In this document: positions 36,164 to 38,917 of the stretch, piece after piece
Layout: each line of letters opens with the position of its first letter
Position numbering within the stretch: position 1 is the first letter of the stretch
NCBI GenBank assembly: GCA_024275975.1
Contig: JAJRYC010000068.1
Location: 1 to 42,366, forward strand
DNA: 42,366 bases
Reading direction: 5' to 3'
From: Nitrospirota bacterium
GTDB lineage: Bacteria > Nitrospirota > Thermodesulfovibrionia > Thermodesulfovibrionales > UBA6898
Position numbers and translations under genes: made by a program
The notes under the pieces: generated by a model
The model's database searches: none
What the model saw: the letters and a program-made list of their open reading frames with translations, nothing else
Told to the model about the DNA's origin: nothing

Positions 36164-36445
36164 TCAGAATACCCCCGCCACCTTTTCTTCATTTATCATC
36201 AGGTCCACAAGGCCGTCATAATCCAGTTCCCTGATCCCCTTATCTGTAATATCCGAACTTATTCCCCTGAGTTTCATATCTTCATTTAGCACATACGCGG
36301 TTCCGCAAAAGCCGTCAAGCCTCTCGGTCAGTGCAAAATAGACCGCGTTCTGTATCAGGCAGATATCCGCGGCCATATCTCTGGCAAGTTTGACAGCCCT
36401 TTTTCCTTCAGGTGTGTCAGGGGCGCTCTTTACAATCACCAGCAT
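36164..36445 (-). CDS. tusB: DsrH/TusB-like sulfur relay protein
   Basis: A 93-residue cytoplasmic protein with the DsrH/TusB fold pattern: LVIVKSAPDTPEGKRAVKLARDMAADICLIQNAVYFAL, then AYVLNEDMKLRGI and the C-terminal DYDGLVDLMINEEKVAGVF. It is the smallest of the DsrEFH/TusBCD heterohexamer that passes persulfide sulfur between carriers. It is the third gene of the leftward operon after tusD and tusC. Whether it serves tRNA thiolation or dissimilatory sulfur metabolism is not decidable here, though the Dsr-like set suits a sulfur-metabolising Nitrospirota. Confidence 0.82.
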   Translation of the reverse strand: MLVIVKSAPDTPEGKRAVKLARDMAADICLIQNAVYFALTERLDGFCGTAYVLNEDMKLRGISSDITDKGIRELDYDGLVDLMINEEKVAGVF

Positions 36446-36559: not shown

Positions 36560-36913
36560 TCAGAAAATCATGACCGGCCCTGGTTCCTTGATTATTTCAG
36601 CGATCCCGGCGCCGCCTGTAACAATGACACCTTCTATAATGTCATCGGGTTCTAAATGTTCTTCCTTCAGGGATATCCTGTCTGCATACACCTCAACACC
36701 CATATCAATACAGTCTATGATCCCTTCTTCCGCACTCAGATATTCGGTGCCGGATATATCCTGACTTTTGCGTGCCGCATTCACGCCTCCATCCAGAAGG
36801 ACAAGTTTTACCGACATATCATCAGTGATGCCGCCGAGCGCATGGCGAATAGCCTCGGGTGCGTCCACCGTACCGTAAGGCGGTCTTCTTAAGATTATAG
36901 TCACACTTTCCAT
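36560..36913 (-). CDS. tusC: DsrF/TusC-like sulfur relay protein
   Basis: A 117-residue protein starting at ATG 36913, with GGAGGGACT directly before it; a longer frame is less likely because it overlaps the tusD end. SVTIILRRPPYGTVDAPEAIRHALGG and VKLVLLDGGVNAA are typical of DsrF/TusC, followed by GIIDCIDMGVEVYAD. The operon order is DsrE-DsrF-DsrH on the minus strand. It assembles with TusB and TusD. Confidence 0.85.
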   Translation of the reverse strand: MESVTIILRRPPYGTVDAPEAIRHALGGITDDMSVKLVLLDGGVNAARKSQDISGTEYLSAEEGIIDCIDMGVEVYADRISLKEEHLEPDDIIEGVIVTGGAGIAEIIKEPGPVMIF

Positions 36914-36923
36914 AGTCCCTCCG

Positions 36924-37268
36924 CTAAATACCAAAATTAAGGAAGACTGGGTCTGTCCTGATTACATTGAACAGACCTTTCAGAGAACTCATGTCGCCGC
37001 CTTCAATGGAATCTTCAGCCGCAAGACCGCGGGTCTGTATGCAGCCGGTTCATATGTCCACCTTAAGCCCTCTGCCGACAAGGTCGCTCAACGCGGAAAG
37101 CGCCTGGGGGAGTTGTCCCTTAACAATAGAGAAGACACCGTCTCCCGACGCGATAAGTCTGACCTTGTGCCCTTTCTTCAGCGCTGCGTCAGCAAGTCTT
37201 ATAATCGTATGGGTATTTTCGAAACTATAGGGTGTGGTGGAGAGAAACATCACTATCTCTTTTTGCAT
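36924..37268 (-). CDS. tusD: DsrE/TusD-like protein, probable selenoprotein (in-frame TGA)
   Basis: The start is ATG 37268 (AGGAGGGTGAAA before it). Reading to a TAG at 36924-36926 gives 114 codons if the TGA at 37050-37052 is read as selenocysteine. The order is MQKEIVMFLSTTPYSFENTHTIIRLADAALKKGHK, then LIASGDGV and GRGLKVDI-U-TGCIQTRGL, and finally a tail ending VFLNFGI. DsrE/TusD normally has a redox-active Cys in this region; here it would be U73 in a UxxC motif. The post-TGA frame continues 41 codons with family-like sequence, and the TAG lies 10 bp before the tusC ATG, as expected for a full gene. Alternatives are a truncated gene or a sequencing error; the selA, selB and selC genes are outside this window. 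Confidence 0.75.
37000..37052 (-). promoter_or_regulatory. Putative bacterial SECIS after in-frame TGA
   Basis: In the RNA, 21 nt after UGA, CCGC (37029-37032) and GCGG (37019-37022) can pair around loop GGUCUU (37023-37028). This resembles the apical loop of E. coli fdhF SECIS (AGGUCU). A competing fold pairs AGACC with GGUCU, so the evidence is suggestive, not firm. Confidence 0.45.
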
Positions 37269-38155: not shown

Positions 38156-38917
38156 ATGGAAGCATATAAGAATATACATATACGGCGGATCAGCGCCGGT
38201 TCATCGGAAGAGGCCGAGGATTTTATCGCGGTAGAAAAAAGGCTGAAGATTTCGATAAACGGCAAAAACGCGATCAATCTTTACTGCACTCCTTTGATGG
38301 TGAAGGAACTGACCGTCGGAATAATATACAGTGAAGGATTGATAACGGGCGAATGGTGCGCGGAGAAAATGAGTATTGAGTATGGTGATGAGATACATGT
38401 TGATATACCGTCGTCAGGGAGTATCAGGAAAGGCGAAGCGACTATAACCTCCGGATGCGCGGGCGGGATGACTTTTGTGAGGGGTGTTCCGGATACGGTC
38501 ATATCCGACGGCATATCATTTAAGGCTGAGACTGTCGGAAAGATATTCAGTGAGTTTCAGAAGATGTCCGAAATCTTCAGGCTGACCGGTGGAGTCCACA
38601 GCGCCGAGCTGACGGACGGCGAAAAGATTATCGTGTCCGCCGAGGACATAGGAAGACATAATGCAGTGGATAAGGTGATCGGGGCGTCTGTCCTTGAGGG
38701 CATATCTTTCCGCGGCAGGATGATGCTGGTGAGCGGGAGACTATCTTCGGAGATAGTACTGAAATGTGCCGGATGCGGGATACCCGTTCTGGTCAGCAGT
38801 GCCGCGCCGATGAGTCTTGCTGTTGAAATCGCGGAAAAAGCAGGGGTTACGCTTGTCGGCTTTCTGCGCCGCGACAGAATGAATGTCTATACCGCTGAGC
38901 ACAGGATTGTGCTTTAA
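38156..38917 (+). CDS. fdhD: FdhD, formate dehydrogenase sulfurtransferase
   Basis: FdhD transfers sulfur from IscS to the bis-MGD cofactor, activating formate dehydrogenases. The 253-residue protein has [17 protein letters not shown], the Cys101 site in [11 protein letters not shown], where the second cysteine of a CxxC pair is missing, and the family blocks [27 protein letters not shown] and [55 protein letters not shown]. Length and order are normal. Formate dehydrogenases often contain selenocysteine, which agrees with the Sec reading of tusD. Followed by yjbQ with a short gap. Confidence 0.93.

Follow-up and report, generated by a model that had tools for sequence, protein, structure and literature searches.

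The window, by which we mean the whole analysed stretch of 42,366 nucleotides, contains three adjacent genes of the DsrE, DsrF and DsrH type, all on the minus strand. The leading gene is tusD/dsrE-like (36924..37268); its frame opens with an ATG at 37268, runs for 72 codons to a TGA (37050..37052), and continues for another 41 codons to a TAG at 36926-36924. This TGA is codon 73 and the only one in the frame, and the read-through translation has 114 amino acids with a putative selenocysteine (Sec) at residue 73. A profile search places the TGA-bearing frame in the DsrE family (PF02635, 42.8 bits, cut-off 22.7), and its product combines this domain with a UxxC motif, U73-T-G-C76. The second residue of the motif, Cys76 (TGC at 37041..37043, minus strand), is invariant in both of our alignments, A1 (20/20 rows) and A2 (19/19 rows). 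Next follows a tusC/dsrF-like gene (36560..36913), whose ATG at 36913 begins 10 nt past the TAG and which matches PF02635 with 42.9 bits. The third gene is tusB/dsrH-like (36164..36445; PF04077, 41.5 bits). A preliminary description of this DNA had already given the DsrE/TusD identity, the 41 codons past the TGA with a stop 10 nt before tusC, and the U-T-G-C motif, and all of these are borne out by the minus-strand coordinates and the read-through translation.

None of the three genes reaches the cut-off of the corresponding NCBIfam model. The E. coli-type TusD model TIGR03012 gives 17.1 bits against a cut-off of 89.25 for the TGA-bearing frame, the best NCBIfam match of the tusC/dsrF-like gene is TIGR03010 at 23.5 bits (cut-off 94.15), and the tusB/dsrH-like gene lies just under the cut-off of TIGR03011 (45.1 bits, cut-off 49.2). 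At an E value of 0.001, the 19 members of alignment A2 matched five NCBIfam families, which comprise TusD, TusC, YedF and DsrE2 models and include no selenoprotein-type DsrE model. Upstream of the three genes stand a tRNA-Pro gene and fdhD (38156-38917, plus strand; 200.3 bits to TIGR00129, cut-off 140.9), and downstream a small ORF, ftsE and ftsX. The closeness of fdhD had been offered as an argument for Sec and carries no weight here, as this gene is on the opposite strand and outside the operon.

An open frame after the TGA says little by itself, since stop-to-stop runs of at least 41 codons are common in the window (512 of 3230). Chance is excluded by the conservation of the TGA in relatives. 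Within a near-relative set of 101 genomes, consisting of the window's own genome and 100 relatives, a protein match is present in 84, and in 57 of the 101, the own genome included, the match runs through exactly the codon-73 TGA (59 matches, counted by hand from the listing; one of them also reads on into a TAA). The same search did not show the intact TGA form in 44 of the 101 genomes. A wider phylum sample of 395 genomes gave 103 strong matches, that is, matches above 110 bits, of which by hand count 99 have one TGA and four have no stop and carry Cys instead. Both searches combined, the in-frame TGA form is carried by 97 genomes, and 90 distinct TGA-bearing loci are left once duplicates are removed. 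A search of named genomes yielded 32 loci, mostly from metagenome assemblies of Nitrospirae/Thermodesulfovibrionales; they also include one Desulfobacteraceae contig with the TGA and Coprothermobacter relatives with Cys. The proteins fall into two clear subfamilies: group 1, which includes the window, has KVDI-U-TGC and at least 71% identity to the window's protein, and group 2 has KVYL-U-GGC and about 39-51% identity to it. Seven genomes (G052, G081, G113, G163, G295, G314 and G350) carry two TGA-bearing dsrE copies each.

Sequence change past the TGA follows the pattern of a coding region. Past the TGA, 33 distinct group 1 sequences give pN/pS values of 0.147/0.656, and 46 distinct group 2 sequences give 0.134/0.693. 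Both are close to the values of the upstream part, and because purifying selection is thus alike on the two sides, we take the region past the TGA to be translated. Synonymous change is suppressed at codons +5 to +10, where group 1 has 0.29, 0.06, 0.12, 0.06, 0.17 and 0.00, compared with 0.35-0.78 at codons +11 to +39, and group 2 has 0.24, 0.33, 0.00, 0.13, 0.56 and 0.00. This drop covers 13-30 nt past the TGA, which is the expected place of the loop of a bacterial SECIS element.

A SECIS-like hairpin with the core CCGC-GGUCUU-GCGG (37017..37034, minus strand) lies in this interval. Counting the T of the TGA as 1, the stem is formed by nucleotides 19-24 and 31-36 around the loop GGUCUU, and the GGTCTT starts 21 nt after the TGA (37028-37023). 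Among 36 distinct group 1 sequences 89.8% of cells are paired and 17 cells are changed on both sides; the covariation score is 0.200 vs 0.083 and was reached by 0 of 500 shuffles, while slid versions of the stem are only 29-45% paired. For group 2, where 33 of the 53 distinct sequences were used, the hairpin is 91.3% paired and covaries weakly, its score being reached in 3 of 500 shuffles. Such a hairpin had been named in the preliminary description, and its position and its conservation in relatives hold, whereas the window's own RNA speaks against the SECIS reading in that it prefers another fold: the lowest-energy structure (-17.8 kcal/mol, z -3.08) puts GGUCU into a stem. The conserved 4-bp core alone gives -5.9 kcal/mol in the window, and at one of the flanking pairs this genome has a C.C mismatch. 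A search of the locus with Rfam detected neither a SECIS nor any other family close to the TGA; apart from the tRNA-Pro, its matches are to eukaryotic microRNA, XIST and snoRNA models, lie below the gathering scores and were dismissed.

The window's own genome (2.51 Mb, 97% complete) holds the complete Sec machinery that was to be looked for, namely selA (596 bits), selB (371 bits), selD (348 bits), which has an in-frame TGA of its own, and selC on contig C3, a tRNA-Sec with the anticodon UCA. Co-occurrence with selA is a weak test and was set aside as support, because the gene is near universal in the near-relative set (over cut-off in 95 of 101 genomes). Among the 97 TGA-carrying genomes selA is over the cut-off in 88 and present as fragments in two (G130, G299), and no match was obtained in seven (G082, G084, G131, G137, G171, G333 and G340). 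These nine carriers without a full selA are draft genomes, 74-96% complete, so that assembly gaps could account for them; we nevertheless counted them against the Sec reading. A further tRNA in the own genome (C91:10675-10768, minus strand; L002:1501-1594) scores 57 bits, over the Rfam cut-off for tRNA-Sec, but has the Cys anticodon GCA. It is a selC*-type tRNA-Cys standing beside the true selC on C3, and tRNAs of this type have been reported in Nitrospirae in the portion of the source available (PMC7609411).

That second tRNA with a tRNA-Sec body raises the question whether the UGA stands for a different amino acid, either Trp or, by way of a selC*-type tRNA, Cys, all the more as opal-decoding selC* tRNA-Cys are described for Desulfobacterales in the same source. 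Its anticodon GCA reads UGC and UGU, the canonical selC being the one with UCA, and we hold such a reading to be highly improbable. More improbable still, to the point of being negligible, is that the frame is a pseudogene, contains a sequencing error, or encodes a functional 72-residue protein with a true stop. A bare TGA would agree with this, as would one relative (G077, locus L118, among the 99) whose frame is shifted by a deletion directly behind the TGA, either because the copy is broken or through a fault of assembly; the purifying selection past the TGA, the existence of full-length Cys forms and the TGA itself in 90 distinct sequences argue against it. The last of these excludes a sequencing error at the TGA, which the preliminary description had named as a possible refutation. 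Judged from the sequences compared, the TGA-bearing dsrE/tusD-like frame almost certainly encodes a selenoprotein in which the TGA is decoded as Sec.

The Cys forms help to place residue 73. In four genomes from a single family (G111, G119, G128 and G141; loci L146-L149) the codon is TGC or TGT; these forms are full-length, about 58-60% identical to the group 2 query, and keep the order dsrE-tusC-tusB-SQR. In the hairpin region (nt 15-40) their mean minimum free energy is -2.93 kcal/mol, vs -9.86 and -8.7 in the two Sec groups. As selA is still present in three of the four genomes, the Cys forms do not reflect a simple loss of the Sec trait. A tree joins groups 1 and 2 with the four Cys forms at 0.95 support, and since the placement of the Cys forms inside is weak (0.55-0.58), we claim no direction from Sec to Cys. 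The Coprothermobacter relative reads ICGLC at the TGA position.

A predicted model of the protein (pLDDT 91.9) has residue 73 where a strand ends and a helix follows. In the PDB the closest folds are YchN and chains of DsrEFH and TusBCD (Z about 15-16), along with other DsrE-fold proteins; the top rows of a PDB sequence search, designed PPR repeat proteins and haemoglobins, were dismissed as repetitive or low-level matches. The first Cys of the Cys form L149 aligns with Cys78 of DsrE (2hy5_A) and with the Cys of TusD (2d1p_A), which has index 90 in that chain and is Cys78 if the construct has a 12-residue tag, by our own counting. By alignment through L149, the predicted Sec73 thus occupies the position at which DsrE and TusD carry the persulfide, Cys78. 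In the available portion of the source, DsrEFH binds sulfur at DsrE-Cys78, which is essential in vivo, and TusD-Cys78 is given as the only essential Cys of TusBCD (PMC3397948). The presence of Cys in homologues at the TGA site, which the preliminary description had put forward as support, is accordingly seen in the four TGC/TGT relatives, in Coprothermobacter, and in DsrE and TusD.

The neighbourhood of the gene is strongly conserved in part. Counted over distinct loci with enough flank (tblastn, E 1e-6), tusC comes next after the TGA gene in all 89, and tusB is present in 85 of 87. An SQR-like flavoprotein is encoded in 64 of 84 loci, an ArsR-type regulator in 67 of 81, an MMPL transporter in 41 of 75 and a DrsE_2 protein in 23 of 75; a TauE/SafE protein occurs in 5 of 58, and within the 58 distinct loci that have 3 kb on both sides there are four with selD and three with a NifS-like gene. 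The usual operon in relatives is arsR-tusD(Sec)-tusC-tusB-SQR-like-MMPL, and of this only tusDCB is left in the window. In the SQR-like protein three Cys are nearly invariant (63/65, 64/64 and 61/62). Among 87 TusB-like partners no Cys is invariant (29/87 and 46/82), which counts against the explanation preferred below. For the SQR-like protein and its homologues (L053:4023-5207) the best NCBIfam match is a selenoprotein-type III SQR model, at 92.5 bits against a cut-off of 525; a TGA in the SQR gene was considered and rejected, the reading frames being open without TGA and Cys codons being present. The ArsR-type regulators of the operon, which for the most part are encoded some 0.6-0.9 kb ahead of the TGA, have four near-invariant Cys including a C-terminal CC pair, and they may sense sulfide, persulfide or a metal.

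The best explanation as a whole is probably that of a Sec-decoded DsrE/TusD subunit of a TusBCD/DsrEFH-type complex which acts as acceptor of sulfane sulfur. According to this model the UGA would be read as Sec by the cell's SelA, SelB, SelC and SelD, aided by the SECIS hairpin about 16-33 nt downstream, and the product would form a complex with the products of the next two genes, having Sec73 in the place of Cys78 and Cys76 three residues on. Sulfane sulfur would be accepted on Sec as a selenenyl-sulfide (Se-S-), Cys76 could resolve or release the bound sulfur, and the sulfur would then go on to a carrier or an oxidising enzyme downstream. The source of sulfur in most relatives would probably be the SQR-like enzyme encoded next in the operon; a point against this in the window's genome is that the operon SQR is missing, the best match having 29% identity. 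The parts of the model are not equally firm. That the protein is a subunit of a DsrEFH/TusBCD-type complex is very likely, whereas a sulfane-sulfur relay through Se-S as the main role, with a putative intermediate and route, is only somewhat favoured.

Among the mechanisms, this relay ranks best, ahead of a UxxC reductase and of a selenium relay. The UxxC could be a thiol/disulfide or persulfide reductase centre and not a carrier: the second Cys is invariant at +3, UxxC is given as a redox motif in the accessible part of a selenoprotein paper (PMC1088965), and CxxC occurs in the PDB relative YchN as well. The constant tusC and tusB partners together with the Cys78 position favour a carrier, and DsrE and TusD themselves are without a second Cys there, so we regard a reductase as rather unlikely. 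The neighbouring selD, which is itself a Sec form (CAGU), and the NifS-like gene would fit a traffic in selenium, with the DsrE-type complex carrying Se(0) or selenide to SelD or guarding against its excess; YedF, a DsrE-domain protein, is linked to selenium metabolism in the part of the source available (PMC5322559). Most loci have no nearby selD, selenoprotein genes may cluster for other reasons, and the SQR-like protein and the ArsR regulator, with its weak BigR match, point to sulfide, which leaves this role a little less likely than the reductase. Far less likely is a selenium form of the tRNA-thiolation relay TusBCD (2-thiouridine at U34), although the three-gene order and the folds are as in TusBCD and DsrC/TusE-family proteins are found in 99 of the 101 near-relative genomes, a frequency at which DsrC is uninformative as a discriminating partner. 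Against it stand the TusD and TusC scores, which are far off their equivalog cut-offs, the 44 genomes in which the search gave no intact TGA form, and an SQR/ArsR/MMPL neighbourhood that does not resemble a locus for tRNA modification. As to the selD genes, they stand upstream of the Sec-tusD operon in L109, L113 and L105 and downstream in L057, two selenoprotein genes being side by side in these clusters.

The Sec-type set has close counterparts among known systems. It shares with DsrEFH type I of Allochromatium vinosum (PDB 2HY5) the three-gene set, the fold and the position of the active Cys78, and differs in having Sec for Cys, an extra Cys at +3 and another gene neighbourhood; DsrH-Cys20 is essential in A. 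vinosum, while no conserved Cys was seen in the DsrH-like partner of the Sec-type set. With TusBCD of Escherichia coli (PDB 2D1P) it shares the order tusD-tusC-tusB, the fold and the Cys78 position, differing in the Sec and in scores far below the equivalog cut-offs. A recent survey of DsrEFH type II in cable bacteria and sulfate reducers describes this type, in the part available, for 985 genomes and gives the functional Cys as 99.3% conserved (PMC13293266, ISME J 2026). Like the Sec-type set, type II is a DsrE/F/H set occurring in Nitrospirota with one functional residue at the Cys78 position; type II differs in having Cys, and it is described as lying beside tusA and yeeE (PMC13293266). Clustering of the ORFs that flank Sec-tusD gave SQR, ArsR, MMPL, DrsE_2 and TauE clusters and no TusA/YeeE cluster. 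The window's own genome has, on C14 (L122:2257-3611), a separate Cys-type cluster DsrH-DsrE(CEAC)-DsrF-TusA that resembles the published type II, and the Sec set is thus an additional DsrEFH-type set in this organism.

The statement in the preliminary description that DsrE-like selenoproteins had been proposed before is right. Those with UxxC are found, in the portions of the sources available, in the Sargasso Sea data (PMC1088965, 2005), in Desulfovibrio vulgaris (PMC1794560, 2006), as GOS DsrE 1 and 2 (PMC2398784, 2008) and in later papers (PMC9312934, PMC13188914). They share with Sec-tusD the PF02635 domain, Sec as the first residue of UxxC and a SECIS past the TGA; compared here by description, in the accessible text they are treated as a single redox family without operon, partner or catalytic assignment. 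The Desulfobacteraceae contig (L078), with a TGA and a TusC neighbour, suggests an overlap with them. The functions of such families are called largely unknown in the available part of a 2026 review, and in the two decades since they were first listed no role has been assigned to DsrE-like selenoproteins. The class is thus already in print; our literature searches met with no account of its position at the persulfide residue, its partners or its breadth in Nitrospirota, and open-licence PMC articles yielded no report of Sec at the Cys78 position inside a DsrEFH/TusBCD-type operon.

Whether this amounts to a distinct and widespread selenium-based DsrEFH/TusBCD-type relay in Nitrospirota, with Sec for the persulfide Cys, an SQR-like partner, a four-Cys ArsR-type regulator and a selenenyl-sulfide, we consider evenly balanced. 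Sec at a sulfur-carrying residue, in a three-gene complex usually near a sulfide-oxidising-type enzyme, would lead to testable sulfur transfer and Se-S chemistry. Surveys that seek a functional Cys in predicted proteins would miss the Sec forms, because the predicted protein ends just before the residue. The type II survey, according to the available part of its text, required a three-gene cluster of annotated proteins, and no word beginning with "selen" occurs there (PMC13293266); we infer that Sec forms cut at residue 72 would be missed by it. By implication, automated annotation would truncate the Sec-type subunit in many Nitrospirota, and published DsrEFH counts in the phylum may be too low. 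One Cys-type operon additionally carries a tandem pair of TusB-like copies (L149:3819-4489).
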